Positions 36,391-63,600 of a stretch of DNA of 64,000 nucleotides are shown piece after piece. Made by a program: the position numbers and the translations under genes. Source of the DNA: Ectocarpus siliculosus (Eukaryota; Sar; Phaeophyceae; Ectocarpales; Ectocarpaceae); the NCBI GenBank assembly GCA_000310025.1, contig FN649750.1, positions 3,206,495 to 3,270,494 of the forward strand, written 5' to 3'. Below the pieces are notes generated by a model. The model saw only the letters and a program-made list of their open reading frames with translations. It had not been told where the DNA came from and made no database searches. Within the stretch, counting starts at the first letter, position 1. Each line of letters opens with the position of its first letter.

Positions 36391-39300
36391 ATGGCGGATC
36401 TCAAACTCGACAACGAATTCGGTTCGGAGCTTGCTGGCGCAGGATCCCGCCCAGCTTTCGCCCACCTCGTGCGGTTCCGGCCCAAGGACATCACGCAAAA
36501 AGAGTTCCCGACCACGCTCACCTTGACGTAAGTGGCCTCCATGTGCTGATAACAGCGCATGTGTAGATATAGTCTAGTCTATACATATGTGCTACCTCGC
36601 AGCCCGCCACGCCCTGACTGTATCTATCTCCCGCCAAGCGGGTAACTTAAGGGGGTGCAGAAAAGGGGTAGTGACGCTGGCTCTTTTCCCCATACTTTAA
36701 TCCTATACAAAGAAAGAAAACAACCTTCCCACAAGGGTTAGGTGTCGGATTCTATTGTCATCAGTAGAGGACACCATGAAGAGGCGTCGTGCGTGCTGGC
36801 ACGTTCAAGTTTGCTACTGGAGCCGAAATATCGAAGGTCGCAGCAACTTCTGAAAACAGTCCGAAATCTGCGGCGGAGCCAAGCGGCATCCAACATTTGT
36901 CACAGCCGCGATCACCACCACGGACCGTAAACCCTTGAACCACGGGTCGTCAGCAGTAGCTAGTGGCATCAGCTACTGCTGTAAACCCGCAGTTCAGGAG
37001 ATTGGGGTCAGTGGCGGCGAGCACGGCTGTGACAAATGTTGGATGCCGCTTGGTTCCGGCGCAGATTTCGGACTGTTTTCAGAGGCTTCTGCGACCTGCG
37101 ATATTTCAGCTCCAGTAGCAAACCTGCACGTGTCAGCACACACGACGCATCTTCATTATGTCCACTACTGATGACAATAGAATGCGACACCTAACCCTCA
37201 AAATTGACCTTGTTTGAGCGCCTTCCGTTTTGGCTCTTTTGACTAGAGTTTAGAATGGTGCGATTTTTTATCTTGATTTCAAAGGAGGCGTGTGGAGGTA
37301 GACGCGTGAAATATATGTTTTGAGCAGCCTCTACTGCCGCCCTGTGCGAGGGTCAACGATTGCTGTTTTTCGCGGTGCCTTCCTAATGGTCTGGTGTGTC
37401 TGATGTGCAATTTCTGGTGCTCTTGCGTTTGATTTCAAAATAAGTCAACATCAAAATTCGTCTTCTGCACCTCCTTCAAGTAAGTTGGCACCTACGTTTG
37501 AATTGTTACTGGTGAACACGGCCGTATTCGAAAAGCAGAAACTCCTTGCTATGAATGCTTTAGGTATCGTCTTGTATTTCCGTCTCATTTGTTGTGGCCG
37601 CCAGTCCAGACTACATCTTTCGGTATGGTTCGTTTGACGCACTATGTAGCAGGGGTCACACAAGAAGAAGTTACCATGTTTCCCCTTTGGTATGTGCCTT
37701 CCAATTTGTTAGTAAAACTATAAATTCCGTGATTATTTGCCACCTGTTGCTCCCCATACAAGCTTCGATGACTCGTTGATCCCTTCCCTTACTCACACAA
37801 CGGTCTGTTTTTGACTGTTTAATTGCTTGCGTATGATTCGCCACAGAAACGTGAGCATCCAAGTGGGAGCGGCGCCTGTCAGTCCGAACCCTAATGACAA
37901 GGGCGAGCCGCCTGTTACCGAAGATACGCCTTTTAAGTGCATGTTTCGCATCGCGAATGAGTCTTTCACCACGGATAGGTACGACGTTACTCCACACAAC
38001 ATGTCACTGGTTGTTCGCCGCACTGGCATGCAGAGCTACTAGAAGCATCGACACGACGGAGCTGGTTTCTCTTGGACTTTGTGCTTGTCATCATCGTTGG
38101 TTGATATTTTCAACTATCAATATCAATATTTTACGTCTCACGTGTGTAAGGGTTGTAGTACTCCAGGAACTGCATCTGTATTGTTGCTCTGTTTTCGTCA
38201 TTATTGTGTTAGTTTCGACACCAACGTATCCACGCATCTGGACAGATTCGAACGTTTTGTACATTGAAAATACGAACGGCGTGTTAAAGAAGGTGTGCAA
38301 AACATGCTTTCGTTGAAGGCAGCACTGAATGAAGACAGCACAACGCAACTGCTGTGGACGAGCTGGTGCTGACGATGAGCGTGTGCTATTTCTGCGCAAT
38401 AGTAGGAACAGCCATGTCCCTCGTCCCATGGGAAGAGGACACACTTGCCTAGTGTAGTCGGAAGATCTCCGTGATTGTTAACCCTGACCAGCCCTTTCTT
38501 CTTTCCCTCCGCCCCGCCCCCTCGGCGTTCGACCATGACCCATACCAAACCTAGCTTCATTCCTGGGCAGGAGGACTGGCAAGGGTCGGGCTGTGTACGG
38601 TTTATGCTTGCGTCCAGTGTTATCTTGCTCGTGCGGGTGCTTGTGGCGGACTCCACCGGCAAACCGTACGGGTACGCTCGGCTTCGGCTCGGTCGGGTGG
38701 GGGAGGGGGAGTTCCAGGTAGCTGGGGAGATCAAGGAGACGGAATACGTGTCGATCCAGGACCAACTGCTAGGGTACATCACGATCAATTTCAAGGTGGG
38801 TGGACACTACTAGATTAACCATGGTCGAGGAGGCGATGTCGATGCTACAACTACTAGTATTTGCTCATCCGGGACCACGGCTCGTCCGGGTACGTTGTTA
38901 CAATCATTTTGATGGGATATCTATGGCGGTGAGATCAGGTAGGGCGCAATTCCCTGTGCTCGACGCCTTCGCCACGTGCATGCACCAACTCTAGTCCCCT
39001 GTCGGTGTGATTGCACGGAACACTCTTTCGAATGTCATGTCGACGTGTCTGTACCCCGTTCGTATGTGCCCCCAAGGTTCTCCCTGTTCTACTTGATTCT
39101 CCAAAACCAACCACCAGGTACAACACTATCTCGCCCATGAAGGTCGGTTCACGACCCTACAGGGCTATGTACGTTTCTAATAGAGAAAACAATTTTCATC
39201 CAAATATGAAACGTTCATTGCCCACACTCCGGTGGGTCTTTGCAGGCCATGCCATGCTTCCCACAAATCCTCGTTCTGTACATGAGATGGAGGTGAAAAA

Positions 39301-42300
39301 TGAGGGTTGGAAGCTCTTCCGACAAGCGTACATGGGATTCATGTCTCAGTCACTCTCGAATCTGGAACGGTTTTCACGAGAACACTCCGTATGCGCGATA
39401 CCTCACAACCTACCAAGAGCCTGTGGATCGTGTCCGTCTGTCCCCAAACATGCAACGCTTCAGGAATAGCTCGAAAAAACGAACTATTGTGACAAGGCAA
39501 ACGCTCACACCAAAACACGTACTTTGTGTGACAGGTCACGCCAAACTTTTCCCTAAACTTGGCTAAGCTGGACAACCAGTTCGACACCAAGAATATCCCG
39601 TCGCTCATCAGTGTGGTATCGGCAGACTCCAAGACTCTGGGGCATCGTATTGGCGCGTTCCAAGGGGCATTGCAGGTCTTGCAGTCCATCGTACTGGACA
39701 TGCAGAGGCAGGGAGGGATTGGCGCCATCGCCGGGAAGCAGCTCAGCGTCATCCTCGACCAGGTTTGGTCAAAATTGCTTCGATCCTCCCTCGAATATCT
39801 ATCTCTTACTGTTTTTTTGCCTTGACGTTCGCCATACATACCCCTCCTGAAGAATCGACCTAGATACGAAAGCGGCGTCGCTGGACTATCGAACGACCAG
39901 TCTCAACGAGAGCAAAACACGTATCATTAAAACAAGAGCGTAGTTACCACCAGCTGCGCCGAAACGGCTGGTTGCACCAGCCTCAAGAAGGAAGGCAACA
40001 ACTTCTTCTGGTAGAGGGCAACCACGCGCATCGAGAAACAAGAGAGCGAACATCAACGACCTGCACAAGCCCACCCACCCGCCCATCCATCCTGCACTCC
40101 CCTTGGACATATTTGACTCTCTAACATAATGCAAAAAAAGGCTTCTTCGGCTCAAGGGATTGAGCTGTTCGAAGACCTCTTGTGGGATATGGCCACCCTA
40201 TCTTTCGTTCCCGAAGTGTTCCAACCGACGCTCACGTTCTTCCCTGGTAACGGCAATGGTGAGGATACCAACACAACCCGGGAGGAGATTGGGGAGGGGG
40301 TTCGCAACACGACAGAGGCGACCAAGGCGAGCGTATGCGCACAACTGGTGAGTGGAGATGCAGAACCTATTGTGCGCCAGAGACACACTCAAGTACAACT
40401 TTCGGTTGCTCCTGGTGGACCTGTGTTATTGCATGAGGTGCGGGCACGCACCTTTGGAAGCGGCGTTAGCATTGCGGTGAATGTCGTATGCGGAGAATGC
40501 ACAACGGATGTTGTCAAGGGGGAGTAGCATGAAGATGCCTTTTGGGACTACCACAGGGACTCCGATCCGCCTGGAAGGCCCGGAACAGCGTAGAGAAATA
40601 TAGCCCACTAAGAATCATCGTTCAGGGAACCAATTGCCACAACATTACGTTTTTCACCCGTTGCTTAGGCAGATTTTTCGCTCCTCCTCTCGCCAGGCGG
40701 TGTACCCGCACCTTGGCCTGTCCATATAAACGATCTACAATCTACTACTACGTCCACAGTATGATCGGGCAATGGCGCCGCGTGTTTGCACCTCACTGCT
40801 AACCATCAATACCTGCGTGTCCCTAGGCTCGCTATCCGCGAAGCTTCGCGTTGGTACGAGATGGAGAAGAACCCGTCATCTTGGTCGCAGACACGGACTC
40901 AGATTACCATAGGTAAGCTGGACTTCCGCTGCTTTTCCCCATCAGTTTATAAATGTATGATCCTTCCTTCGTTCCTGCAACTAGAGCGAAGGTGCGGGCA
41001 CCCAAGCAGAATCAAGTGAAACCGAAGGCGTAGCAGGCAGATCGGGCTCGAGCGAAAACAACGTAATATTCAGCAAAAAAGTTGTCGCTAGCTAGATTAG
41101 TTCGTTCTACCAGTGCTTTCTCTCCACCGCATGGAACTGTTTCCCCGCATAGAAGAGACGATCCAGGATCACGCCGGAGTTTGAGCTCCCGGTTTTGACA
41201 ATCTAAAGGTTCCGATGACACCTTTGGCCCACCTTCTCGTCCAAATAGTTGATGCTAGAAGCACAAACAAAGCGGCGTCTATCGTTTGTTTTTCTTCTTA
41301 CACTGTTCGGCGGTTGAAGCTCGGCGGCTGCATACGAGGTATCCGATGGGCTCCGCCAACAAGTGGCCGAATATTTCATAGCAAAGGCTTTCTATACAAA
41401 TTTATATGTAGTTAAACCCCCTGAAACGTTAGTTCTATCGTTGCCGTTGCTTCGCCTCTTTCCACTGGCTGATGCTCGTGCGTCTCTTGCTTGGGTCAGG
41501 TGGACGGTGGTGTTGCGGATAGCTTGCCAGGCAAACTCGGAGGTGGACGTAGAAAAAGCGAAGAAGGTGAAGCGAGAAAAGAACGCGGGGACGTGTGAAG
41601 AAAAAATAAATAAAAACAGACGTAAAAGAGTGAGCAGTTAGAGCAAATAAACATTGAACAGCTATGAACAGGTAGGTAGCAAGGTGAAAATCCAACATCA
41701 ACGAGCTCACTAGGAGTGAAGGTGAATGAGGTTGATGAGTCGACAATCAACTTCAATCAAGACGAGCATGAGCAATGAACAGTACAATTCGCCCAGTGTG
41801 TCGCGATGAGCATGGATTCTTTGTTGGCCCTTGTATATTTTATGTCACCGTGGGCTCTTTCTTCGAGATATGTACTTTGTTTGATGTTCAACAGCGAAGC
41901 CAATGATCTGCCTTGAATCACCTGCTTTCTGTCTCACTCGTCACCACAGCTCGTAATACCGGAGTATTGCAAGGACCCCGTCCACCCCGACCACCCAACG
42001 GCCGGTTGGCTTCGTAGAAAGAAGCGCGATAAGCGGGCGTTGACTAGCTCATTCGTCAACCGTTTCTTCAGGCTCGAATACGATGCGTACATCATGCGAT
42101 ACACCTTCTCGTACGGTGAGCGCAATGGCCGAGGCAGAGAACCATGAATCGATTCCAACACGGTTGCCTGTTTCTCGCGTAGTATTGGTGGATAGCTTCA
42201 ATTTTGGGACAAAGTCCTTCCACTTTGGACAAGCAACGAGTGAATCCGTGCACATAGGACCGCGTTGGTACTGAAGCAGGGCAGGGGGCGGAACAGAGCG

Positions 42301-45300
42301 CTGGTTGAGGTTGCGGACACGGTTGTCCTTTAACAAGAAAACAGAAGCAACGTCTTTCTATTTTCGAAACAAACAAGCGGGCAACCACGTACATATAGCT
42401 AGTTTGCAATTTGAACCGATTTGAGGCTGTTCTACTTGTGCTGTGGCGATCGCTTCTTTTATGCATAAATTGGTTGTGTAGGGAAAGATCCCTCCGACGA
42501 CGCTACCCAGATGACCAAGGTTGGACTAGACGATGGCACGAGCGTGCTGCTCCCAAGCGTGCCACCAGTTCCTACTCCGTTCGCCCTTCAGGTACGGAAT
42601 ACATGATTCCTTCACTACTGAGTTACCTGTCGCTACGTCCATAAGTGTGAGAAGGTAGCAAAGTGTTCCTTCTGAACACAGAACGTTTGTCGTCCCATCT
42701 AATGTGGCATGGTCTGGAGCTGACCCAGGCATGATTCTATCACAGATGTGCAACCAACGACTCATTTATACGTTCGAGGTATGGGTTAAGTTTCACGGCT
42801 GATTTATGTACGAGGTTGGTGGCAACTTGCTGAACATGTCGACATTGCGGTGTTGAACGTTTCAGGAAGTAGATGATACACCGATATACCCCATCAAGGT
42901 AGTCGACCCTGCATTGTTTGCGATGTCCCCGAGCACTTTCCCTCATTGTGTGCATGTTTCAACCTCCATCTTTTAAACTCGAACAGACTCAGAGGAACAT
43001 GTAATTACCTGTGAACCAAATCGCTGCTCAGCATATGTTCCACTTCTCTCATTCAAAGCATGAGGGTGCCATTGGCAGGAACTAACCCCCGACCAATGTG
43101 TCTATTAATAGCAGCATATGCAAGATCTTGCATTTCGTTCGTGCCTCGTCGTGCGTTTGTCATGGAACGTAACAGATCGTTGTTCAGCAAGTGAGCGACT
43201 TTTCTTTTTCTGAGCACGATTCGCTGAGGGTGGTGGCGCAGCTCGGCTCTCTCCGGCAATGCACTCGCGCTTTTTGCCCCAAGGAGTCCACGTCCATCAA
43301 ATCCAACTTGCTGCTACCAGTCGAGCAGGTAGGTGCCATTCACTCGACTCGACTCCGCAGTATTCCCAAAGGCAAAGTCCGGAAACAAACTCCATACCAT
43401 CAGCCTAGCTTCCTTCATGTTGATTTCTCGCAACAGAGTCTTCCGCTAACATCCGCTGCATGAACGGTTTCCTGTCATCATACGGTCTGTTGCACACGCA
43501 TCCCATGTTAATGTTTCTGCCGAGACTGAAAGTGACGCTTTCGCCGAACAATGTTAACGTTTCAACCAAACCAGCAATGCCTGGCGTACGGCAACACGAG
43601 TGTCTCCACTGGAAACGTGGGTTGGTTCGGCGAGGACGTGACCCTACCCGAGAAGCAGGAAGGAGGAGATAAAAAATTCGAGCTACTCAGGTGACGAAAA
43701 CAAACCACTTTCTCTCAGTGGAGAGTTCGCATGTTACTCTTTTTTTTCGGTAAGCAATGTAGAAGAAACAAAGAATATGGCATCTTGATGTTCAAGCGTC
43801 GAAAGTCCGAACACAAGCACCGAAGTGCTTACCGCCCGAAAAACGGAAACTTAACCCCTTTGGGTCTAGGCTGGACTGTCAGATTTTTTTTTTTGCGCCA
43901 AATAAAAAAAATGAGAGCGAGAGCGAGCGGGAGAGAGAGAAGTGCAGAGAAAGACACCAGTGTACTTCTGCACACGCAACAGCTATCTCCCCCTGTAGGC
44001 CATGAAAGAAGCCGGCGACAGGGTGGTGGCCACAGACAGGGTCGTAGAAGGGTTGGTGGGTGGTCGCGCTGCGGTCAGTAGGGCAGGTTAGCTGTGTAGC
44101 CTTTGAAATGATCAGTCGTCTAGCTGCCTCAACTAGTCTATTTTCGGTATATTGTAAATGATCAGTCCAGAGAGGGCAAAATGATCAGTGAAGACCCATA
44201 GCTGGTATTTGTACTTCTGTACTTCTCTGTTCTCTGTCCCCCCCCGAAATGTGCCCTGCCAACTCTCTAGAGCTCCTGTGTTTTTCAAACAACAAGCACA
44301 TCCACCAGCACACACCTGTACCTCGTGGTTTCCTAGGTTCGGGCGAGGGTGGTATGTGTGGCGCTACGAGTGTGGATGTGTTGCCGATATGTTTTACTCG
44401 TCTACAGCAGTAGTAGTGTTGTTGTAGCGTTCGTTGTAGCTGTTGACACAATGACTGCTGGATCTTCGGAACGATTTTCAAATTGTTGGGAACCACGATA
44501 TCCTCGATATCTGGGCTTCGGCAGGGACTGCAATACCCCTCCCTTTTGCTGTCCTCTGCTCTTTGCAGCAGTGGCTTCCTACGTTCGGGCGAGTGTATGT
44601 GTGGTGCTGCGAAAGAACACATATGTGTGTATGTATGTACTGTAGGCACACACGCGTTCATTGACATGTGCATACATACGTTGAGAGATTCATGATTTGG
44701 CATTGATTGGCCCATTCCCATTCCCGAGACCTTGACATTACCCGCTGTCACTGAAGTCTCTTCATTGGTCAGCCGGTTAGCGCGGGTGCTAATAATCTAG
44801 ACACACCTACCTATGGACTTGCCAATACACGGCGCGAAGGGCTGCAGGGCGGCAACTCCACGACTTGCCACTACACCAGCATTTGCAAATGATCAATCAA
44901 TGATCAGTGAGAACGCCTGAAGACTCAAAAGGGTTAACCGTTGAGGAGGGTTGGAAGTCGTTCGTATTCGAGCGCGGGCACGGCAGATTTGTGGACAAAC
45001 CGGGTGTCGACCTTCGCGTTACGTTAGGTTCGGTCATGAGAGAGAGCCGGGGACACTCGCCTCGACCAACTTAAGCATGATTCCAAGCTTGAACATTGGT
45101 GACGTTCATGGTAGAATACTGGTTTATTTTGAGAGTGCGTCCCAAGCCGCTACATGGGATTATAGCGCGGAACGCCAAGGCGTGAAGGACGCGAGTTTCC
45201 CAGAGCTGACTCCCACAGGTATTTGAACAAGATTGATCTTGTAGAAAAAACTCGAGGTAAGCTCAGGCGGGCGTATTACACCGTTAAACGCGCCATACTC

Positions 45301-48300
45301 GTCCTGAACGCCCATTGTAGACTCTCTCAAGACGTGTTCGATATTGTTTTAACCTCGATACCCTCAGCCGCGTGTAGTAGTTGTGGACAAGGTTTGATGT
45401 GACCGCTCCGATCCCATCGCCTGCCTTGTTTTCTGGATTCAGATTCTTCATTGGGGAAGGGCAGGGGGCAAACGCCAAGACGGCAGTAGCCACTTGCAGC
45501 GTGCCTTTCGCTGACCTGCAGTTCGGTCGACAACAGGTGAAGAGTCTTCATCCCTGACAATATATCCGAATGTTGAAGAATCCATCCCGCAGTGTTGAGG
45601 AATCTATCCCGCGCTAATTTGTGTAAGACATGGATGGGGGTCTAACGAATCAAGGCACCGCCTGTGTACCAAAGCTACAGAGTCAAAGCAGACTGCAGCG
45701 TTGCGCTCAACTCAAAAACGTTACGATCCTCCTATGAAGAGCCTACAGGTTCTTGCTGATCGTGTGCTGGCATGCCGCCTTTATTGCGTACGGTGTTCAC
45801 ATGAAACCAATGGACGGGGAGACTCCAACTTTCAGACGTTCTCGCCCCTTTGCTTGGAGTTGAAACAACATAAACGATGCCTCAGCCAATCGCATTGAGC
45901 GGCTAGGCCAAGATGATGCCCCCAATGGTCCTGACCGTTTCGGTCCTCATTTTTCTTTCTCGGCACACGAAAGGATATGAATCTTTCTCTGAACGGTCCG
46001 GAGGTAGAAGACGCGGAGGAGTTGACGGTCGGCATCACCATGCGTCGACTTGGGCAGTACAAGACCGCTTGGCCCGCCACGATGACCGCTCTTCTGCAAG
46101 CGGGAAGCACGACCTCCACCGATCAGGTGTGTGCGGGAAAACCAACTCCAGATCGCGTGAAACAAGCGAACGTCCGAACTTGAGAAGCCCTTTCTTAGTG
46201 TTTCGTGGGAAGTACAGGTACACAAGAAGAGGGGGGCTGGATATCGCACGTAGCGTCCATGGACCAGAAGTGGTCACACCCGCACATGGGGGGATAGTAT
46301 CTTGCGTTGGAACATATTTTCGTTTCACCGAAAGGCAAACACACGGCAATGAGATATTGGACTCGATCCGATTCCTCCAGCCTGACACAGATGGTTCTCC
46401 CTGCACTTGTTCGCAGGTAAGGACGGCCCCGACCGATCAACTACATTTTCATAGGTGTACATCCGAGGTACAGGATGTTCCTGATTTTCTCTCTAGACCT
46501 GACCAATCGAGTTCACTGCCACCGAAAAAAAAAATGGCCTCCGGCTTCCGTGAAAAATAAAATAAAAAACGACGTCCTGTCTAACACACTATTCAGACGA
46601 TGTGGGAAGGACCTTGCATGGTGAGAACAGCCCCGCAAGGCCTGGAGGTTTTCCGGCCGATGGCCAACCCAGAGGAGCCTACCAAAGCCATCATGACCAT
46701 CGACTACTACTCCGTCGAGGTGAGCTTCGTTTTGAACTTTACCAATAACGTCTGAAAAACGTGTGCAGGTGGTTGCCCATATCGGTACGGAATTCAGATG
46801 TGCATCAAGGTATCTTGACGCACACTTAACCCAAATTCAGCGGCAAAAAAGATTTTCTCGCGGACCCAAAGTCGGGTTGCGCTCAGGTGGTCCCTGGTGC
46901 GCAGGAGTTGCATCTGTTACGAGTTTTCATCATAAAATGGTATTGCTTCAGCATAGGGTGTTCTTGGGACGGCGGTTGCACATCATTTTCATGAACCGAC
47001 TGCCAAGGTCATCATTTGAAGCAACGTTGACGTTCCATTCAACAAAACCCCGGGGTGGAGTACCCAAGATCGAAGTGTGAACCCGCAGTTTCCAAAATAG
47101 ACCATCATGCCAGCTCTGACGCAGAAGAGTTCACCTGGGTTTGTACGCCATTATTTCCAGTGTAGGCTGTCATTCGCCGTCGAACACTTTCTAGGTTAAC
47201 CGCATGACGTGCTGCATACATTGCCAACGGAACAACAAAAGACGGGGTAACATATTTCGAACGATCTATTAGCAACCTTTTTGTACATGCGATGGAGAGC
47301 AATGCAAGGGTCAGTTCAAATAGGAACACGAAGTGTATATTACGCTCTCCCCACCCACAAGTGTTGGAAGCGTTGTTGATTGTCAAGATCGCTGGCATGG
47401 ATAGCATGACACGTTACAACCTGGACACGACGAAACACTCTCAACACAGGCGATGACGGACGTGAACGCGTCTACCCTCGACATCGCAGTTATAATCGAA
47501 GACGAGTCTAGCGCGTTCAGCACGCAAGGCAGCGCCAGAAAACCTCCAAAACCTCCCGGTTCTCCGGGAACTCCGTCGACACTACCGCCTCCGTCCCCCC
47601 TATCCGGCCCAACTCCGGGCAGCAGTCCGATCCCTGGCACTCCTGGTGAGACTTATCGTTATCGAGAGGAGTATAAATCACGGCTGAGTAGCCCTTACAT
47701 GTTTCGAAGCCTCCCCTGGTTTAGAGGATCTATGTTCCTAATCGATTTCGAAATATGGCATCACGAGGGCGAGGTGAAAACATCAGAGATACTCTTAAGC
47801 TAGCTTTCGCGTTTTTTTCAAAAGAATACCCGCGAAGTTCGGGGTTTGCTAATACGGAGCGACAATGGAGAACCCGTTGCACACCCGATGTACGGACCAG
47901 AGCCTGATTCCCATCATGTGAGTAGTTGGTTGTTTCGTGGTTCCCGGGCTGACCGGTGAGAAAGTCACCCAGCGTGTCAGAATAAGTGCATCGATTCGTA
48001 TCTTGGGCGCTTGTGGTGTCTTGGCTCTCGTGTGTGGGGCGTTGTTGATCCCGTGATATAAGCTGACTTTAAACATTTCGACTCCCTCATTTCTCCTGTT
48101 GGGAACCATGGTATTGGCATACCGCTAGATGTCACGACGATAGAGATAGGCGCCCGCAAGGAACGTTGGTCTCCACAGGCAATGTGGGACGTAACCAGTG
48201 CGCTTTTTCGAAGGCTTGCCGTGCCGCAACAACTTTCTGGATGCGAAATCGTGAGAGTTGCACCGGAGCCGCAACAGCAGCAACAACAACCTACATTCGT

Positions 48301-51300
48301 GACTGACCGTCAGTGAATGTCGTTGTCATACATAGTGTATCTGGGCTGCAATGCCTGATCTGTTGGCAGTCACTTGACGGTCTCTTCTTCTCGTACTGAT
48401 TGCGCCCAACAACGTTTAGGTGTGAGTCCGGGGGCTTTTAGCAGGTCTGGGGTGTTCGGCCTCGATTCACCTGCACCCACAAGACCCAACCTTGACCGCC
48501 GCGGCAGCTTTGGGATGGTGAGTTCAGCTTTGTCGACCTGAATGACATTCATAGCAAGGAAATAAAGTTTTGTGGGCATTCTTGCGTTTATGTGTTAATT
48601 TGTGATCGTATTGTGGGTTGAGGAAGACCACCTTGCGTACATGTTCGAGAAGGATTGTTTGGGGAAGCGATGTGATGCGGCCAACACTCCTTGTTATTTC
48701 GATGTCTCGCAAATCCAACTGTCTCCGATGTACCTACAGCAACGGAGCAGCGACAACACCCGTTCACTGAGAAAAACGTGCATGGTTCTGTCTTGGAACC
48801 GACAGCAAAGCCAATGGTATCCTACAGGCATCAACGCATGTTGCTCCCACCGCTCGGCACTCACTCGAATTTCCCGACACGGACTGGCCTGGTTCGTTTT
48901 CGATCAATGCAGGTAACACGAAAGGGCAAGAGCGTCTCACCCAGTAAGTCTCCCATCAAGGACACGCGCTTTAGGTCGACCAACGGACGGGGGGACTCCG
49001 CCGCCCCGAAGAAAGTGACGGTGCCTCACGACTACTTCATCCTGCGCATTTCTCCCTGCCCGGCGGAAACTCTCAAGGATCTGGTCAGTGAGAGGAGGTG
49101 GATGTTCAAGTGCAGGAACATGCTCCTGTACATCACCAACAGGCTGCACCAGCTGAGGCAGGTGCGTGACTCAATAAAGAACGCCCGGGAACAAAGCCGA
49201 GTTGTTTGAGCGTTGGAAGTGAAGGTGAATTATTGCACGTAGATATGCATCAATCTTAGTCCAGAATCGTACCCTTTCGTGGGCACCACCAGGCATTTTG
49301 CGCTACCTGAGGTACTCCGTGTTCAACATCATTATTTCGGTTTATTTCTGTGCTGAGTCGCGTATTGAGTTCAGGTCTTCCGGCTACACTTTATAGTGAT
49401 GCGAAGCTCGAACATTGCTTGCTACTTTGTGGTCATAGTCGTTTCTTTCACCAGCCATCGAATTCGGTTCTATGACAACTATTGAAACCTAAAAAACAAT
49501 ATGTTGGCAGGAAGAGGAAACGCACGGGGAAGGTGGACCGTTGGCATCCGACCGCGGTTTGCGCGAAAAGCTGGCGATCGCGTCCGCCGAAACCTACAAG
49601 ATGCTGCGAGCGGACATGAGCGAGATCATTAAGACCTCAGACTGGAAGCGTGCGAGGGGAGTGGGCTTTACAGAGGTATAGGCTGCTGCTGATGAACAAT
49701 GCAAAGCGGACAAACAATCTTTTTCGGCCGCCAATTTGTAGCTTTGATCGACTTGGGAACACCATTCTTTCTCTGTATCGATGCCTGGCTGCAAGCATAC
49801 GAGGTGGGCCAATTTCACGAGGGAGTGGGTACGTGCTGCGGTGACAGCTCAATGCCTGAGAGGAGTTCAATTGGAGTGAATCTCCGTAGACTCTTGTCCA
49901 AGGACATCCGAAGACACCTAACGAGGTTCTCTCGGGTCGCCCTCTCTGTGTGCCCTAACGCCGTGCTTGTGTTACAGAAACAAATCCGGATGTTTTTCCG
50001 GTTGCAGCGGATGTCGGTGTACTTTGCAAAGCTGCTTGAGTCCAAGGCTCACCCGCTCTGGGGCTTGGACAATCCTATCGATCCAACGGGCTTCGCCAGA
50101 CAGGTGCTGCTACTTTAGCCAACATGCTTGAAGGACGACGATGCTTGCCCTTGCTATGTAGTAGGAGACAGGAGTGGTTATGATGTGATGACATAACAGC
50201 AACATCTTTGACGGTGCGAGTGTCGACAGATAAAATAGTAGGATGCTCATGCTTCCCTAAAACATAACCTTCTTGGAGCGCATTGAGTATACATATCCGT
50301 TATTGGTGGTTTGTTGCCTTATTCGGTAGGACGCAACTGTTTAATGAGTATTGCTTCGGAAGCACCCCCAAACACCCGTAGGGAATGTCGGGAATCCAAA
50401 CGTCTCGAAGGAGCGAACAGGTACCATGATAAACAACGGGAATGATTCTCCTGCGGCAGATGTGACACTCACAGCACAATAATCGTTAGCAAAGACTCAT
50501 GAGATGAAGGACATTGAAACGTCCGGACGTTTGATCATCAGGACTTGGACAGGGTCTTTTCGAGCCAATACGTGCAATCTGGAACGTTCGGGGCGGAGGC
50601 GCAAGGCATCGAGAACAGTGTCAAGGGGGTTGGCTGGGTGAGTTTCTTGCACATTGCTGACATTGCAGACATGACCAGAAGCTAAAGCAGAAACGATTCC
50701 GGTTGGAGAAGAGCCTTTCAAGACGTTAAGTCATCCCTCAAAAGTGAGCGGTGCTGTGGTAACAAAAACTTCTACATCTTGCCCCAAATGTGCCTGTTCG
50801 CTTCTATATACGGTACTCTCTTGCCCCTCACGCAATAGTGAAGTACAGGGAACATTGCATGTTTGACTTCTATATTTTCCTCATGTAACATTTGTGAGCA
50901 GGCGTTGAAGAGCTTGAACCGCCGGTTTGACGAGACCAAGCTATTCTACAACAACTCTCCAGAAGACATTGTGAAAACAAGCCGCATATTCTTCCAGGTA
51001 CATGAAATGGCAGTCGTCCTTGGACTCTGGCCCACGTTGATCATCTGTAGGAGTTTGGGTTGAATGAAGCCCCATACGCCTTGGCGTAGAGTCCTCGCCC
51101 TGAGCGTTTTACCTCATTGAGACAAAAGGGCCGGGAGAGCGGCGACATGTTCTGGAAAGATCCATGTACAGGGAAACCCCAAATACAGGAAAATAACTCC
51201 TTGTTGGGCGCCATGCAGATGCTCGCAACATCGATGGCATCGATGCGGGAATGTATCTCTCGTCTCAATGCTCCGGGGGACGAGGGCATATGGCACGATC

Positions 51301-54300
51301 GAATCGAGCGGGGCGAACTTGGTGCCGTCTCCGTGCCAGATCTGTTTTCATCTGATTGACTCCCGGTACTGCTATGAATATTGCTGCTCATCTGCCGTTA
51401 TTGGTACCAACGGTGCTATCCAATCGATGGCATGCCCATGGCACTCTGCGGTTACCGGTTCAAGCATTTAAGCGAAACTATCTTGTTTCCTACCAAAACA
51501 ATACACATTCGCGAACACGCCAGGAGTACTTTTTGAGGTGCACCGGAGAGCTAGGCGCCCACGTCATTTCCGACAATATCCTGAAGGAGGTGCCAATAGA
51601 GGTGGTGGTGGCGTTCGTCTGCTTCTTGGTCAAGAGGGACAACGCCTTCCATGACCTCTTGGTCGACAACTATCTCGAGCCCGACACCAACGCCTTCTTG
51701 ACCTCCATTCTGTGAGCGAAGTTCGTTCATGTATCGGCACGCGGTTGACCATGAAAACAAAGCTCCAACCACGATGTTGGAAAGTCCAATGGCCTCATAT
51801 GACAATATTATGAGTGGGACTCATCATGAAATTCGATCACCTCACGACACGTTTGGGCATCACACCTCTTAAGTACTGACTTCAACTCTCTGGTTGCAGG
51901 ACACCTATACGCACTGGTTATGCGGTTTGTGCTAGTAAATGCTACCGTTTTCCATGCAGTCGGTGTTGCGTGCCCTTACAAAGCTTGATCCGCAAGAAGA
52001 AAGTGGCATACATGTGTTCTCTCATATGGGTTGTGGCACTACCCTAGGTTTCTTGGCTGGGCACGTGAAGTTGAATGGAGTCAAGAAGAACAGGTGCCGA
52101 AGACATACTTTTGCTGCTGCCCTTCTAGTTCTGAGTGGCATGACAGATGGCAAAATGTCCGCACGAGCTTGGTTTGCGTACATCAACGTATGGTAGCCTC
52201 AATGTCTCAGTCATTACTGATGAAGAGAGCTAAACAAACGTCACGCAGAAAATCATCCGTTTAGGGCCACACGCTGTCCGTTACTTTCTCATTTATGCAG
52301 ATCAATCGACTCCATGATTCGGAGACTGACGAAGCGCACGGAGCTCGAGATCGTGGCCCAGTGGCCCAACGAGGGAGATATCTCTGAAGACGCCACGCCG
52401 GCCTACCTGACCTCTCTGCTGGAGGACTGCTCCCCGGACGCGGAAAACGATGGAAAGCTGTCGACCCGGGCGCCCGAAGAGCTCATGAAACTTTTGGCGA
52501 GTCGCTTTAGTTCGTTTTTGATGTCCCGGTGCCAGGAACATACACTGTACAGTCATTTTCGAACGCCTCTCATTATGAGAACGCCCCCCCCCCCTCCCCG
52601 TACCCCAAATACTGCCGGTAAAGCTCGAAACCCCCGAGAACTCCCGAGGGTATTCGTGTTTATTGCTGTTTCCGATGTTCTGTTCTCCTGTTCTGAATCG
52701 GCCCCGGGATACAACATTTTGCCGTTTTTTCGGCTGCCCCACGAGTCGTTCAATAGAAGATCATGCGCACTCTTGCCGGCACGATTTTGCTGTTGTTGTC
52801 ATCATTGTTATTGCTGATATCATGGCTTTCAACACGAGAGGTCTGCAGCACCATGTGGGGATCTGTGTCAAGAGTTACCCCGAACAGAAGGAGAGAGGTT
52901 GGCATCCCCGAGTATTTACAACCAGACCAAACGTTTTTCTTCCTGTTTTTTCAACAGGAGAAGTACGTTCCGCTGATCTCCAGCCAATGCCGTGCTAGGG
53001 GAAACCTGGGGGCCAAAATCTTCGAAGGAATGTTCGCGGCCATGCCGTCGTTTGCGACGACTGCGGCAGCCGCTGTGTTCGCGTTGAACCATGCATCGAG
53101 CAAGGACACCACCACTCGCTATTTGGCAGCCTTTCTCAATGACATGACCAGATCGGCCGGCCTGGTGCAGGAGATGATCGACGGCAGCGAAGAGCACCTT
53201 CAAGTGAGCGAGAAAACCGTACCGTATTTCGTCACCGAGATTTCCTTGCAAGAATCAATGTCACGACCGACGACAAACACCCCGGGCCAACCACAACTGA
53301 GACACAAACAAACACGTTGCACAAAGGTTTCGACTTCACGACAGCCGCAGCTGAGTGACGGCGCGTCGTTCTTGCTTCGGATGCAAGACACACAGTCGAG
53401 CACACAGGGTGTGTCTTGACCTCGCAAGAACGACAAACCCTGTGTCTGCATTAACGACCCGTATTTCCTACTCACCACGCACTCTTCCGCCACAACGTTT
53501 GCGATCCAAATGTGTACAGGGGATCCCTATCGATGTATCCGCCATCCAAGGCGGTATGTTCAGCGCAGGCGTGGAGGTGGCCTGCCTCCTGGCGGATGTG
53601 GCATTGCTGGAAATGGACGCCGTCTGCGCTGAATTCTTCCAGGCCGATTGGTGACTTTGCTTCGGACTCGAACATCTGTTGCTAATACCATAGCCGCTGA
53701 CATTCGAACTTTTGTTCAAGTTCTGATCTCACAAGAGTAGTACCATGGGTTTTGTTCAGGTATGCTGCACGCTGAGGTTCCGAGACGTGTCGGGGGGCAG
53801 TGTGACGACTGCAAGGCTGCTCGTGCAAATCAATATAGTCATTGCGATATGCTGACAATACTGCTCACAAGGTATTCGTTAATGATCGCCTTGCGCCAAG
53901 ATTTCAGACCAACGGCGTGAGAAGGCTCCGATGCGACTCAACGATTTTTCATTGAACGGCATCGATTATCACTGAAACGTTGTGCCATGATAGTATCGTT
54001 GTGAAACGCCCTCGTTCCAGTCACTAAAGTCCAACCCCTACACCCCAAGAATTTTCACCGACTTCAACTACTCCTAAACACGCTTTCCCGACTCTCGACA
54101 TCAGGTATGCTGACGACGAGAACGCCGTAATGCGCAAGGCGTGCAAACTGCTAAACGTCGGCATCGCCCGCCTTGAGAGCCAGACAGTGAAGGAGCCCTT
54201 CTTTGACCACGTCATCGGTGCAGCGACGGAAAAGATCGCCTTCCGATACCTGGCCGGTCTGGTGCATCGGTGCAAAGATCATCAATCCGGCGGAAAGATG

Positions 54301-56595
54301 ATAACGGAAGAGGTATGTCCGGGGCTACTATAGGAGGTCTTAACACGATACATGCGTCAATCTGAACATCCCTCATCAACTCCTGCAAGTAATCAAAGGC
54401 TGTTTCCCCGTCGCTCAAAACGGGGTCAGATCTACAGCAGCCCCTTCGATGCCCTTCGCTAGATTTCCTGTGTACTATACAAATTAAGGATCGATGTACC
54501 CGTAACCTTATCCCATGTTTTAGTTCTAAGGCCGAAGCGGCAGCTAAACATGGGGAGATTGAGGCGCGATGCTAGACGACGTGCGTCCCCCCCCCCGCGA
54601 TACAAACATGCCGCGCGTAGTTCCCCGCCGGATCCCATACAGCCATTATGCTCGAAAGCAACATTTTGAAGTTCCCAGCTTCACAATCGTAGGACCAAGA
54701 AGTTTGTTCAATGCGAGAGACGTTATCATAAACCAATCACAGGAGCTGGAGCGGATGCAGAACGACGTGGAGATGATGCAGAGCTACGTCGCCAAGTACG
54801 GGCAAGTAGGCGTGACGAGCGTCTTGCACTTGAAGGAGGCAATTATTTTCTTGACCGAGAAGCCAGAAATTATCCAGCAGGTCGTCTTCGTCGACATCCT
54901 CAAGAGGCACGAGGGGAAGGTGCGCCCAAGTGCCAAGCTACCTTTCCTGGGTCTGTCTTTGGAGATTGTGCACACATTTCTCGTGGTCGATCTCGCGCCT
55001 GCTCCGAGAGTTGTTCCTATCATTTAGCGGTGGTTGTAACGGCATTCAGTATCATAGGTCCCATGCACCTGCGCTAGAAGCACCCCCAGTGATAGTCCTC
55101 TCTGCAGTATTACAACGGTTGTCACTTCTGGTAGCAACCGAAAGCTGTCAAGCAGGAATGATGTCTGTATTGGCAGCAATGTACCCTCCTGGTTCTGCTG
55201 TCGCACACCTTCCACGTGCAGGAGGAACACGTGATGAGCATGCTCAAGACGCTCACGGCCGTCCGGGACGATCTACGCAACTTTTTCGTTCCCGCTTGGC
55301 TCAACAAGGTTTGTCACACCTCAGAGGTGTTGATAAAAGCCGTCGTTGAACAAACTTGCGGACCGTGAATAAACTCTGGTGGCGGGGGCAATAATTGTTA
55401 CTTTAACATCTACTTTTGACAGCTAATCACGGCTTGGGCCAGGAATTGCTTCGCACGTTGTGCGCAGAAAAAAGTGGATAGCGCCAATTCGTTATGTACA
55501 TCTGACTTGGCGGCCCACGGGGAAAAGGAACGCCTGAACCTTCTCGCGATAGAAGTGAAGGCAAGTGTCGAGAAGCGACGGAAGGAAGAGATAAAACATT
55601 CCTGTGTGACCTACGCTGGTGCGTCTAAGCCGTAATATCGACGCCGAGCATGAGCGAGGAAACTGCCCGAATGTTCTTGCCACCGTGACGCTTCGCACAT
55701 CTGATTGACCTCTGCTTCCGTGGTCAATATCATTCTGCCTTTGTGATCTGTGCTATCTTCACTATAGTTGACGCAAAAGCAGACCGCCGTGGTGCAAGAA
55801 AGGCAGATGATGGAGTTGGAGGGGGACGGCCGCGCATCCCGCATCGCGTTCGACGCGTTCGAGTGGGTGTTTCAAAGTGAAGTCACTCAACCTAAGGACG
55901 CCTATGTGTACAAGTGAGTTATCTATTAGTCCGTGGTGGTGGACCTTGCTCGCTTGCATTTCGATGGAGCATCAGCTTGTGACAGACGGCATTTTTCTTC
56001 GTGTGTTATGATAGGTTCTTTGCAACAGCCTTTCACCGTTCACCAAAACCGTTCACCAAAACCATTGGTGGAGTTACAGTAGCGTAAGGTGCTCAAAGCA
56101 AACACTTGTGGAGCAACAACCGATTTCAGCTGCTGCCTTGTTCGAGTTGTCGGTGTGTACAACAAAGACATTGATGAGTCAAGGCGCAAAGATGGATCGT
56201 TGACCCCTTTTGGCCAGGCACTGCCGATCTAGGGGTTCTTACTTCACCATCGATTATCTGAGCAGAGGAAGGATCATGTGTACCGTGCGCCATGTCCGAC
56301 TTCGGTAGTAATTAACCTAGCGTAGCATCTCGAAAAATGATATTGAACATATTGCACCTTCCCCTGGGTGACAGGCAACGCCAGCTATTTGTTGTTTTTC
56401 ACCGAGCGCAACTGTAGGCGTCTTGGCACGTACATACACATGCGCATGAACGGATAATGGCCGAACAAAGTGAAATCTTGACCCTCTTATTTCCAACGCT
56501 GGGTTATTTATTTTCTGGCCCAACCTTTCTCTCCTCTGCGCAGGTACCTCATGCAATGCCTTCAAGCCTCCAGGGTGCAGACAGGAGCACAATGA
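36391..56595 (+). CDS. C2-PH-Sec6-like membrane-tethering protein, ~31 exons
   Basis: Exons: 36391-36527, 37847-37978, 38618-38795, 39535-39762, 40141-40347, 40827-40912, 41950-42115, 42482-42591, 42866-42898, 43188-43328, 45974-46126, 46597-46719, 47450-47645, 47838-47917, 48179-48312, 48445-48517, 48913-49161, 49511-49675, 49978-50103, 50902-50997, 51524-51711, 52302-~52520, 52958-53203, 53520-53650, 54105-54312, 54743-54919, 55222-55308, 55423-55560, 55768-55913, 56544-56595. About 1460 residues. Residues ~46-150 are C2-like (VILLVRVLVADSTGKPYGYA). ~323-475 are PH-like (AGWLRRKKRDKRALTSSFVN, RFFRLEYDAYIMRYTFSYG). ~566-630 are proline-rich. ~727-1351 are helical, with the end matching exocyst Sec6/EXOC3: EPFFDHVIGAATEKIAFRYL, then VLHLKEAIIFLTEKPEIIQQ, then EEHVMSMLKTLTAVRDDLRN. 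MUN-domain proteins (Munc13/CAPS) share this fold and CAPS has C2-PH-MUN order. The likely role is vesicle tethering or priming at membranes. Two joins are unresolved: phase breaks between 40912 and 41950 (an exon is probably missing), and the donor of the 52302 exon. The intron after 55560 would use a GC donor. Confidence 0.7.
36734..37198. mobile_element. Palindromic fold-back element in intron 1 of the C2-PH-Sec6 gene
   Basis: Two arms of about 190 bp are inverted copies of each other around a ~90-bp centre. The left starts AGGGTTAGGTGTCGGATTCT and the right ends AGAATGCGACACCTAACCCT. Arm identity is high; for example GGCATCCAACATTTGTCACA on the left is inverted at 37025-37045. CA flanks both ends, a possible 2-bp target duplication. 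There is no coding capacity; the similar open frames in the two arms on opposite strands are a by-product of the palindrome. RNA from this intron could fold into a long hairpin. Confidence 0.85.
44754..44800 (+). other. tRNA-Ile(AAU)-like fragment, probably relic
   Basis: The stretch contains a D-arm-like GGTCAGCCGGTTAGCGC followed by GGGTGCTAATAATCTA. The latter resembles the anticodon arm of tRNA-Ile, loop CTAATAA. The 3' half of the anticodon stem does not pair and no T-arm (GGTTCGA-TCC) follows, so it cannot be a working tRNA gene. It may be a tRNA pseudogene or the head of a tRNA-derived short repeat. It lies in the long intron between exons 43328 and 45974 of the C2-PH-Sec6 gene. Confidence 0.3.
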
Positions 56596-57690: not shown

Positions 57691-60600
57691 TCATTCTACC
57701 GCTTCTTCGTCTCCCCTCGAGAGTCCTCCTCCCCCCTTTGAGAGACTCCTCACTGCCTTTGTGCCCGTACCCTGGGCCGGTGCGTTCTCCCCGGCGACAT
57801 CTCCTCCCTCTACGTGTGACTGTGTGTCTTCGAGGGAGTCCCCAGTTCCCGTGTGACTGCCTCCTGGAGAAGGCCTAGTGTCGTCTTTACGGTGGCTGCC
57901 TTCGCCCGTGAGGGTGCGTGGGGCATCAACAGACACCCTTTCGAGATCATTTCTGTCGGCGTTGTCATCGTTGTTGCCAGGACCCAGGGGGTGACAGTCT
58001 TCGACCTCGCTCTTCGCGGCTCCCGTCTCCGCAGGACCACCCAAGACCTTCTCCGTACATCCCATGACCGGAGAACCATCGAGGCTACGACCAACAGGAG
58101 TTTCCCAGAAGCTTGTTGGTGTCGGGGGGGGCTTCAGGCTGGTGATGCGGATGGCCTTTGAAGGAGGGTCGGCGTGCGAGCTGAAAACAGGAGGCGCGAG
58201 GTGGTGTAACTTCTCTTCGGCGGATCCTTGGCAGTTTGCTGTTTCGTCTGGTGAGCTAGCCGATACATACGCGGGCGAAAGGGCAGTGCTGATTGAGGAG
58301 CATGTACCGTCGAGTGATGCTGGAGCTCCTTCCGATGGTTGAGCGCATGCCCCGAGGAGAACATAGAAGAGGTCTTGTTGAGATGCCTACAATCGCAACG
58401 GCAGGAAGGCGACGCCGAACGTGCGCAGTTCTTGAGGGTGGAACGTATTGAGTAGTGGAGGGACCAGTGGCATTGAAAATAGGAAGGAATGCAGCAGGTG
58501 CTTCGATCAAGAGCGACCACTCTCGTTACACCCTGCCTACTGACGGGATGCATGCAGAACTCGACGGAGAGATCCTTAAACGCGACCACATACTGAACGC
58601 CGAGAACATGACTTCTAGGGCCTACTGGAAATACTGTTCCTTGTCAGACTGGGCTTCTCGATCTGTGTCACACTCGCTCACCAGAGGCTGTCGAGGAAAC
58701 GTCCTCTCTCGTAAGGCGTTGAGGCGAGACTCGGCCTCTTCCTCACCGACAGCTCTACCCAGAACCATGACCATCGCTATCCGCAGTGCCGGGATGTCTA
58801 GATGCCCCTCTGTTGTTCCCTTGGCGCTCGCGAACGCGGATACTGCCTGAACACCGTGAAAACATCGCGTGTGGGACTAAGACGCGCGTTTGAGCCGGTG
58901 ATAAGGGGTTTCGAGAAACGCGTGGAGTTTGAGTCTTGGGAACTCTGGAATCGAGGTACAGCGGAATGACATTATTGGAAAACCATGTGGCTACGGTTTT
59001 GTAGGTTCGGGCTTCCGCTCGCGGGAGGCGTTACCTCTTCGCGCAGCAAGGCTGTCTGCTCGTCTTCCTCTTCCTCGTCCGAGTCGGGAAAGTCGAGTTC
59101 GTCCATGTCTCCATCCTCGTGCTCTTCCGAATCCAGCAAGCCGACCTCCCCGAAAGTGCTTGCCACAGTAGATTGCTCTTCCACACTAACCGTCGACACT
59201 GTCCCAGCAGTAGCTCCGCGACTGCTACTCAGTCCCGCCTTTTTCCTCTGAAACACCGGGAGGGAAGGAAAAAAATGCAAGCTGGTTGTGCGTAGACGAT
59301 GATTTTGAAACACCCCCCAGAGAATGAAATATGTTGTGGCTGATGCCGTTACGGGTGCTACCCAACGTTTATCTTCTCGTATTCCATGCAAGCACTTCGT
59401 CTTTCGACGTGCGCAATATATTCAGCTGGAGCACACAACACACCTGGGCCCGAAGCGGCAGAAACTTCTAAACACAATACAAAACACATTCTTACCGCCG
59501 CCGCCTGCTCCTTCGCTGCCTGTGCTCTTGCGGCCCTGGCCTTCTCTTTGGCCTTTTGCTTGGCAGCCTTGGCCTCGCGGAAAGCCTTTCGGATCATCTT
59601 TTGCACTGACCGTTGTGCCTCTACCTCTTCCGTCGGTCGGGGATCACTCACGAGGAAACGGTCGATCTGAAGGCCAACGGACGTTACCGGCGAGGAATTG
59701 AGCGAAAACAACTGCTTAGTTCCCCACAGACTGTACACGGCAAATCATTTCTCATCTCCAATGAACCACAGAGGCCAAACAGTTTAGCCAACGATTGCGT
59801 GATTAATCCTCAGCTATCAGCACGCTGGCTCAGAGTGCCACAAACCTGGATCTGTCATCATCTCACCCCGGTACAGTCTACGGCAGAGGAACCAGCCGAA
59901 AAAACTCATGGCTGGGAAGCAAAAGTGAAAAACAGGCCCCAAATAAGCAGTCCTAGTGCGGGATCGTACCAACCCATTACTACATATGCCCATTCAGATT
60001 TGAACCTTGTCGCAGACCACGGTTGGTATGAGTGAAATGTCCAAACCTGTGCTATCCTTGATTGCTTCCAGGCTTCCCATTCGGCCAAAGACTGCCTCAG
60101 TCCCTCAGCCGCCGTGGTCGAGAGAGGGGGGTGCTCTAGCCAGACCCTGCGAATACATGCCTCCATCGCCGTGCTACATCCACGGGCAGGAATCCCGACT
60201 TGTGCCCCCTGCAAACGGCAGATAACAATTGGGTCGGTTCAATGGGGGGTGCACGGCGACCAAAATACGCCACATATTGCAATACCAGGCATGCAATAGG
60301 TCCCTAGATGTGGATCGATGCAGAAGAGCCATGGCCGGTGGTCGTGTGTAAAAGAACCTTAGGTGTTATTGTAGTGTCATACAACACGCACATATAACGC
60401 TGTCTGTGGCGACCGGATTTACTCTGACGGGGACAGCGCATAAGACGCCTCCCTTGGGCACCTGTACAGGTCATGAGAAGCGTCCACAGCCTGACGCACC
60501 GTAGCGTGCTATGCCTGCTCACCATACGAACACGACGTCTCGAAACTAAACCCTCACCAATCTTGCTCTGGCGGCTAGAGGCAGGGGTCTCGTTCTCCAG

Positions 60601-63600
60601 CTCGACTTAGATCCGACGTTTTCCGTGTGATCGTAATCATTTCCGAAAACCCGGCCTGGCCAATGCTGAAGGAGAGCCGCGAACGAGCCTTCCCCTCGAG
60701 GCGTCGGTAACACAGGAACGTAGAAGCTCAGCTGAGAGCAGACAGGCATCAAGCACACAGACGGAGAGAGGACGAGACAGGAGGGGAACATCAGGAAGAA
60801 GCGGTTGAGCACGCGATCCACTGGTCGTTTGATGTTGCCTTCTGAGTCAACACAAGGCGGAAGCTGTGGTGGGCGCACATGCTGTACACACAAACCGCGT
60901 GATGCTTCCGGTGCATGAGATTCAATCACAACTAGATGCTTTGCACCGTCTCACCTGCCGCGCCCCGTGCGAATGTGGGTCCGGGCAACAGTCTTGTTCA
61001 CGCACATCCACTGCCCGGGCTGGCCCATCCAACGATCGCCTCCTATTGTCATGGTTGTCCTTGTTCACCCCGAGTCGGGGCTGTTGCTGCTGCGACTGAG
61101 ATGGGGATATGGGTGCAAGACGCTCACACCACGTTCTCGCGTCGTCGTTCCGAAGCAACTCTAGGGCGGAGCCATCTCGACGGTAGATGAACAAGCGAGG
61201 CTCCAAGGGTTCGTTGACAAGGGCCTCAGATCGCATGCCGGCTGTTTCTCCAGCCAGGTCAATCGACACGCCGTTGGACTGAGCGCAAGAGAAAGAAAGG
61301 GGGGCGGGCGGGCGGGCGCGAGATTGTCTGTGTGCTCCGCGGACTTCAAATTGCGTTTGAATAATATGTCGAGCGCGGAGTACGTGCTGCGGAGAAACGC
61401 AGCGAAATGGTTTGAGTATTCTTGACGGTTGCGGTGGGTCCGATATTGCTTGGTTGTTTCGACGTACGTTGTGCACGCTCCTGCCGAGCTGGATTCAGCG
61501 ACAAGGGTGTTACTGTCGTGGTTGTGCTCTGTAAAAGCACGTTCGCACGTCTATCTATTTAGTACCTCGTCCGCGCTGTTCAAGGCAAAGAGACTATTCT
61601 CTGCGGCCATGAGTTTGCCCAAAACAAGGCACAGCAACATGGTCGAGGGTTCCAAACAAATTCTCACCCCTCGCGAAAAGATGAGGTTCGTAAAGAACGA
61701 GTCAAAAAGACAATAGAGCAGCAATTTTGTTGTGTTTAAAGGAGCAAGGCTCTTCGAGATATCAAGACAAAGCGACAAGGTCGGCTTTGTTGAAGGACAA
61801 GTTATCGTTCCTGCGTACTTATTCGTGTAGCAGTCAACCCACTCATGAAAGACGAGATGGCATTGCCCAGTTCATTTTCACAGCAAAGTTGCGTGAACAG
61901 TACCAGTACAGTATGACACTGCGAACTTGAACTGTGCCCTCTTTGGATCATTCCCACCTTCCCGCTGGAAGGTCGGCTCGAACCTCGCTTGCTCTTCTCT
62001 GGTTTCTCCTTGGGTGAAGTGGGGCTGGTGGCACCGTCAGCTGTGGACCCGCCTTCCCTGGAGATGGAAAAGTCTTCCCGCAGGAAGGCCGTCTTCGTCA
62101 CGTCCACGACGAAGCGGTTCCTATCGGTATCTTCTGATTCCATAACTCCTTTGAGGCAGTCGAACTTATAAGTCCCGACAAGAAGGTCTGGCTGCTCGCA
62201 GTTCGGGGGCATGGACGAGTTCGGTCCGGCCAACTTACCATGTACGGGCTCGCCCTCCCACATTCCTCTTGGACGCACCACCACTTCCCCTTTGTCGTTG
62301 GCAATAACCTGGGGAAGGTTAAGGCCGGTGGAGAAGCGGGTGGTGGGATGGCCCACGTGAAGTTTGACGAAAACGTACGGTGAAATACTGCGTTCTCCCG
62401 GCGTAAGAGGGTTGGAGAATGCCGTATTAAGCAGAGCGGTTATCCTTGCAATAAATGGTAGAGGCTGTCATTCTGTGGGCAAGTTCATCGTGCAGGGCAT
62501 CCATCACCTCGGTGTTGTCGCTGTGCACGTAGACCACCCTTCCGCAGACCTGAGAAGTGACTCTCGTGTCGTACGACACTAACGTCACACCTCCGTTGGG
62601 CATCACGGCCCTGAGCCGAACTCTGTTGCCTCCCCGGGTGATGGTGACGGGCTTCCTCCTAGCGTGCTTCGAGCACATTTCCTCGACTTCGATGTCCACC
62701 TTGAGGAGGTCGAAGGGGAGGTGGGTCGGGTCGGGCCGGGTTAATAGGGGGTTCAAATTGCAGTGTATTTGAACTGCAGGAATCAACGGATTAACGACGA
62801 GAGGTGAAGCTGTTCACGATGTCTGGCTATGATGTGTGATTTGAACCAGAAATGATCAGGATAGTAGGCGGTTCGGTGTTTGCCAGACTGGATGATTGCG
62901 TAGTACGTGAGGACCCGACCAGTTTCCTCCGATACCCCCATCCTCACTAGATAGCTGCCAAAGTTACGACTTAAAACCGTGGTGCGCAAGAACGCGTGGA
63001 GGAACGAACGAACCTCGCCAGCAGATATCTTGATAATTGGGAAGGTGGCAATGCCAACGTGCCGATGAGAACATCTCGACGAGTCGTGTCCGACAATGGA
63101 TCGTTCTTCTCCCCTTTCCACATATTTGGAGCTATCGGGCGGTACCTCGGTTCGTTTCCTCATATAGACTATTTCCCTTTTGAAGCGCAATCACATCCCA
63201 CCCACAGCCACATCACCGGAAGAAACCCCCCGCATGCCAAATATCATACGTTAAACCCCAAGCTCTAAGCTGCTCCCCACCGACAACGTGATGACTTCCT
63301 CCTCACCTCCACCGACGCAAACCCAGGACATTCCACCAGAATCAATCCCGCGGCAGCAGCACCCCCGTCCTCTTTCCCTTGGCGCCACCTCTGCGTGGTC
63401 CCGTCGGCGTGTCTGGTCACCGTCAGTTCATCTTCGTACTCGACGATCACCCTTCCATTTCCGCCGGGGGGGCACCACACAGTGGCACCGGTTTCCACAT
63501 CCGTCACAGGCGTTCCATCGTCCGGCATTTTCGATGCACTAAAGCCGCTCGAGGTTGGACCTGTCCGGTCATCATGTTTATCTTTGTTTGCGATGCTGGG

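Follow-up and report, generated by a model that had tools for sequence, protein, structure and literature searches.

The 64,000-nucleotide stretch of the brown alga Ectocarpus siliculosus analysed here (the window; assembly GCA_000310025.1, contig FN649750.1, positions 3,206,495 to 3,270,494 of the forward strand) contains on its plus strand, from 36391 to 56595, what appears to be one gene of 31 exons, whose product combines a long N-terminal part with a C-terminal part homologous to the exocyst subunit Sec6. This gene structure and the homology to Sec6 are what the computation shows. Assembled from splice-site and codon models, the gene has a coding sequence of 4,512 nt that translates into 1,503 residues; all 30 junctions are in phase, and the sole stop codon of the frame is its end. 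Most introns are of phase 0 (23 of 30, with five of phase 2 and two of phase 1), every acceptor is AG, and 28 of the 30 donors are GT, the other two being GC at 52497 (TTTTG/gcgagt, exon 23) and 55561 (AAG/GCAAGT, exon 29). We tentatively regard the product as a lineage-specific tether derived from Sec6, encoded whole by this one gene of about 31 exons, whose N-terminus perhaps serves as a membrane anchor.

The homology is seen with the Pfam family PF06046, for which the curated cut-off is 29.7 bits. The final whole product reached 41.4 bits (E 9e-11; aa 1088-1354, profile positions 238-512 of 537) and the best piece, of 374 residues, 45.7 bits (E 4.7e-12; aa 1088-1367, profile positions 238-525 of 537), which corresponds to 52431..55233 in the window. 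The first model scored 41.6 bits and a revised C-terminal portion of 734 residues 43.3 bits; over all model versions the range was 39.8-45.7 bits, always above the cut-off, with 45.7 bits for the GC-donor join of exon 23 against 39.8 for an out-of-phase alternative join. With the limit set at E 10, Pfam listed no family other than Sec6 for the C-terminal part or the full-length product; since the filters of HMMER discard the majority of matches above about 0.1, non-listing is not a strong sign of absence here or below. The match covers part of the profile, without positions before 238, and spans about 270-280 residues within the last third of the protein, 136-149 residues of which follow it. 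An earlier sequence-only reading of this DNA had proposed that the C-terminal third follows Sec6 to its end: the family assignment stands, being above the cut-off in the Sec6 profile search suggested there, and the extension to the very end does not. The same reading had paired EEHVMSMLKTL with the RDDHIGALL region of the family, and it was indeed with that stretch of EXOC3 that it aligned. In the alignment with human EXOC3, yeast Sec6 and TNFAIP2, which score 336.5, 353.0 and 252.9 bits over the same region, 12 columns are common to all, including P..D.DG and a W. Profile comparison with these three Sec6-family sequences returned P 0.0031 when the C-terminal 700 residues were used and 0.86 with the N-terminal 644 as a control. 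Chou-Fasman propensities, a crude measure taken on a 1,451-residue model, were 0.49/0.29 (helix/strand) in the Sec6 part and 0.52/0.26 in the C-terminal extension. Ten single-frame Pfam scans returned chance-level families only (best E 0.023). Judged on its sequence, the C-terminal part is credibly a very divergent protein of the Sec6 type.

A simpler possibility, though an unlikely one in our view, is that this is the alga's ordinary exocyst Sec6, fast-evolving and carrying a lineage-specific N-terminal extension. Sec6 being the sole family match agrees with it, as does the genome, where neither PF06046 nor human EXOC3 found a second Sec6, a result that does not show absence. However, the score lies well under that of even the side-branch member TNFAIP2, and a canonical Sec6 may have been overlooked because these family searches are insensitive, PF06046 having missed even the present gene. 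The same insensitive search gave no match for the MUN and Sec15 families. For Sec10 there were nine weak matches (E 0.012-0.2), in model order at three places and all below the cut-off, and for Exo70 one match (E 0.003), also below it; given the weak but ordered Sec10 exons and the Exo70 match, an exocyst is probably present. The Sec10-like exons lie on contigs C27, C275 and C283, in the same model order on each, as extra copies or unmerged haplotypes. No paralogue was found when the genome was searched with a 1,419-residue model, 26 of the 27 matches being the gene's own exons and the other at chance level (E 0.26), and one scan of viral contigs with 591 C-terminal residues returned no relatives. 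The RuBisCO large subunit, sought as a marker of the organism, gave no match. The gene that we read as a Sec6-derived tether, which the earlier reading had offered as possibly an ancient stramenopile factor, may instead be of recent origin and specific to its lineage.

Some 770 residues lie before the first helical segment, close to the roughly 700 that had been estimated ahead of the Sec6-like part. C2-like and PH-like regions had been proposed within them, and neither was confirmed. At the Pfam limit given above, no family was listed for the final N-terminal 662 residues, and of the profiles suggested for checking, those of MUN (MHD1), C2 and PH were not listed, either for the whole product or for pieces of it; one N-terminal piece matched an Ig family at chance level (E 0.18), NCBIfam gave no match, and a PDB sequence search with the N-terminal part returned chance-level hits (E 0.16 or worse). 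A home-made profile of five PH domains gave a held-out PH domain 39.9 bits and the chosen region 5.2 bits, more than any of the 916 shuffles that were scored out of 1000 (the best had 5.1); with a second profile, of six domains, the PH-like region came top of 71 windows over the whole protein at 3.3 bits. These values, together with the pattern AGWLRRKK...FVNRFFRLEYD, make this segment look PH-like, though no more than suggestively. Home-made C2 profiles were negative, the two candidate regions scoring -1.9 and -0.9 bits, within the range of their own shuffles. Three candidate beta segments had strand/helix propensities of 0.41/0.21, 0.40/0.28 and 0.35/0.30 by the same crude measure and model; the second segment, called helical by eye, had 0.33 helix and 0.36 strand, which does not support the label. 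Labelling the beta-rich parts by eye gives, in order, a possible C2, a possibly helical segment, a possible PH, a possible second C2, the linker and Sec6, in place of the simple C2-PH-Sec6 that had been proposed; both order and count depend on visual judgement and a crude propensity plot. A doubtful reading is a single-chain hybrid in which a Sec6-derived rod is fused to a C2-like, a PH-like and a second C2-like module. A priming factor of the CAPS/Munc13 type, with C2-PH domains and a MUN-type rod, is improbable: the C-termini of CAPS and Munc13 are related to Sec6-type CATCHR folds (PMC3849599, in part) and exon 6 has the PH-like pattern, but no MUN, C2 or PH family was listed for the product, the family matched is Sec6, and a candidate C2 seen by eye also follows the PH-like part instead of only preceding it. 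The link to CAPS/Munc13 that had been drawn is accordingly not supported.

That the long N-terminal part and the Sec6-type C-terminus belong to one gene is supported by the splicing models, and the single gene with its start at 36391 and stop at 56595, as first proposed, was borne out by in-phase exons and by the lack of a boundary between its halves. In the first model the phase was lost between 43690 and 45974. When the gap at 43.7-46.0 kb was scanned, the exon 45443-45536 ranked second in score and was selected for its phase, which fits both neighbours; with this missed exon in place, splicing stays in phase from 43 to 49 kb. All four settings of the self-trained Viterbi model predicted a single gene. 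At exon costs 15 and 17 it spans 36391-56595, 25 of its exons agreeing exactly with the model of that stage, and at cost 13 it has an upstream start at 34768 and spurious exons. For less circularity, six further runs were trained on exons 17-31 and tested on exons 1-16, or the reverse. Training on exons 17-31 recovered exactly 9, 8 and 6 of 16 exons, and training on exons 1-16 recovered 13, 12 and 12 of 15, these last three runs passing the stop as far as 58161. Five of the six kept a single gene, the sixth (lowest boundary cost) splitting off a 5' piece with a second start at 37833, and none placed a gene boundary between the halves, even at a boundary cost of 2 bits. Since both training halves come from a hand-built model, cross-training is support and not proof. 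Exons 6, 7, 9, 10, 13, 15 and 16, which include the linker exons, the PH-like one and the second C2-like one, were missed by all three runs trained on exons 17-31 and are for this reason the least secure. It is improbable that two adjacent same-strand genes were fused by the reader, an N-terminal one ending at about 46-47 kb and a Sec6-like one beginning at about 47-49 kb: linker exons 15-16 and exon 13 escaped every run trained on the Sec6 half and exon 12 depends on a weak acceptor, but phases agree through exons 11-17 and no Viterbi run has a gene end or begin there at any boundary cost down to 2 bits. Several earlier versions were set aside. The first-pass model of 1,419 residues was replaced after the addition of exon 12 (by phase) and exon 20 and new borders of exons 2 and 3 (by Viterbi), its exon 29 end gave way to an extension to the GC donor, a candidate exon at 40827-40912 was dropped for phase misfit, and Viterbi at low exon cost was discarded for over-prediction (110, 95 and 75 exons at costs 4, 6 and 8).

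Several results weigh against a Sec6-derived tether with a membrane-anchoring N-terminus. The yardsticks outscore the algal Sec6 match 5- to 9-fold, a gap that may come in part from the species behind the Pfam model; HHalign gave the C-terminal match a probability of only 10 percent; the PDB sequence search with the C-terminal half returned chance-level hits and did not find Sec6; and residues 770-1044 have no Pfam family match. Towards the N-terminus, the C2 and PH families of Pfam are listed neither for the whole product nor for its pieces, 84 of 8,000 shuffles reach the PH-region score, which is not significant once the 71 windows are allowed for, and whole-protein windows have no C2 signal, the best C2-profile windows falling in the Sec6 part. 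The gene model itself includes weak splice choices, namely the donor of exon 2 (1.5 bits), the acceptor of exon 12 (2.1), the donor of exon 22 (2.3) and the two GC donors; the small exon 9 and the optional exon 29 are further weak points.

All exons lie on the plus strand, and those mentioned below without comment come from the splice and codon models. Exon 1 (36391..36527) opens with the ATG at 36391 and ends in the donor ttgac/gtaagt. Exons 2 (37847..37985) and 3 (38571..38795) follow the Viterbi choice of borders, in which the exon 2 donor has 1.5 bits against 6.2 for an alternative end at 37978 and the exon 3 acceptor 11.4 bits against 2.5 for an alternative start at 38618; exon 3 is beta-rich and C2-like by eye only, without C2 profile support. 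Exons 4 (39535..39762) and 5 (40141..40347) precede exon 6 (41950..42115), which carries the PH-like pattern, and exon 7 (42482..42591). Exons 8 (42746..42778) and 9 (42866..42898) are each of 33 nt, the latter being uncertain, in phase yet skipped at all four Viterbi settings. After exons 10 (43176..43328) and 11 (43575..43690) comes exon 12 (45443..45536), with its weak acceptor and a strong donor (8.8 bits), and then exon 13 (45974..46126), beta-rich and again C2-like by eye only, without profile support. Exon 14 (46597..46719) is followed by exon 15 (47450..47645), a linker rich in Pro, Ser and Gly by composition, joined by a phase-1 junction to exon 16 (48420..48517), also linker. Exon 17 (48913..49161; acceptor 12.4 bits, donor 11.1) holds the linker end and the first helical segment. 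Next are exons 18 (49511..49675), 19 (49978..50103), 20 (50542..50637, from the Viterbi model), 21 (50902..50997) and 22 (51524..51711), the last with its weak donor. In exon 23 (52301..52496), which uses the first GC donor, PDAENDG aligns with P..D.DG of Sec6. The Sec6 core runs through exons 24 (52958..53203), 25 (53520..53650), 26 (54105..54312) and 27 (54743..54919), and the last codon of exon 25, split with exon 26, encodes the W of EXOC3, yeast Sec6 and TNFAIP2. Exon 28 (55222..55308) contains EEHVMSMLKTL, and the Sec6 match of the best piece ends here. The C-terminal extension is encoded by exon 29 (55423..55560), which has the second GC donor and is skipped at exon costs 15 and 17, and exon 30 (55768..55913), while exon 31 (56544..56595), bypassed by the runs trained on exons 1-16, holds the stop codon.

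Intron 1 contains, at 36734-37198, a palindrome of 465 bp with arms of 228 nt that are 86 percent complementary and form a strong hairpin. It matches on both strands the Rfam family MIR8622, which we take to be an Ectocarpus family, a match that points to a brown alga. Genome-wide, all 40 places scored (of 320 candidates, its own copy included) also match. The palindrome looks like a foldback element or one of the MITE type, and in this sense the MIR8622 family may be transposon-derived. In a study of Ectocarpus miRNAs, 23 earlier candidates were not validated and were considered most likely siRNAs (PMC4513859, in part). Beyond the gene, the minus strand at 57691-63999 has five long open frames (149-244 aa), none of which matches Pfam at E<=0.01; they may be exons that belong to a neighbouring gene.

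What we infer for the Sec6-derived tether, namely its domain identities and fold, its binding of lipids, its place in the exocyst and its function, would fit together as follows. The C-terminal half would be the Sec6-derived and probably rod-like helical part, of CATCHR type. Ahead of it, the Pro/Ser/Gly-rich linker would be preceded by about 655 partly beta-rich residues, which probably attach to membrane lipids. The N-terminus may bind the plasma membrane or a vesicle and the rod SNAREs or other exocyst subunits, and one chain would thus do the work that in other systems takes Sec6 together with Sec3, the subunit with a PH domain (or CAPS). If a Sec6-derived rod is indeed fused to a large N-terminus that possibly binds membranes, it would offer a natural test of the kinship between tethering and priming factors. 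It would also hint at how a lineage of Ochrophyta, a group with many exocyst losses, fixes a tether to membranes (PMC6784791, in part). If the hybrid with C2-like and PH-like modules were true, a single protein of a brown alga would both target lipids and tether in the manner of the exocyst, convergent or in common with CAPS; among the matches listed in our literature search, no title or abstract opening described a Sec6 that carries C2 or PH regions.

The exocyst is kept across diverse eukaryotes, one stramenopile included (PMC5795050, in part). Besides the losses in Ochrophyta, stramenopiles have limited expansions, principally of Sec3, Sec5 and Sec6, and Sec6 duplications occur in more than one supergroup (PMC6784791, in part). 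Sec6 is counted among the CATCHR rods, with Sec6/M-Sec a vertebrate duplication (PMC8290106, in part). CAPS and Munc13 have a distantly Sec6-related rod with membrane-binding domains ahead of it, their C-termini resembling CATCHR domains and Munc13 being structurally like Sec6 (PMC3849599, in part), whereas the algal protein has no MUN, C2 or PH profile match. Sec3 and Exo84 have PH domains of their own that likely bind phospholipids (PMC6784791, in part); the algal protein, unlike them, has its match in Sec6, with neither a Sec3 nor an Exo84 family listed for it, and its PH-like region is unconfirmed. TNFAIP2 (M-Sec; PDB 5b86), a side branch of the Sec6 family in vertebrates, is likewise a divergent, non-canonical member, but with 253 bits and a 5b86 chain of 600 residues it is much less divergent, and shorter, than the algal protein. 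From Sec6/EXOC3 itself the algal protein differs in its score (41-46 bits versus 336-353 in human and yeast) and in the roughly 770 residues added before the helical part and 136-149 after the match; what they have in common is profile positions 238-525 of 537, over which the match is significant, and the landmarks P..D.DG, W and the C-terminal EEHV/RDDH.

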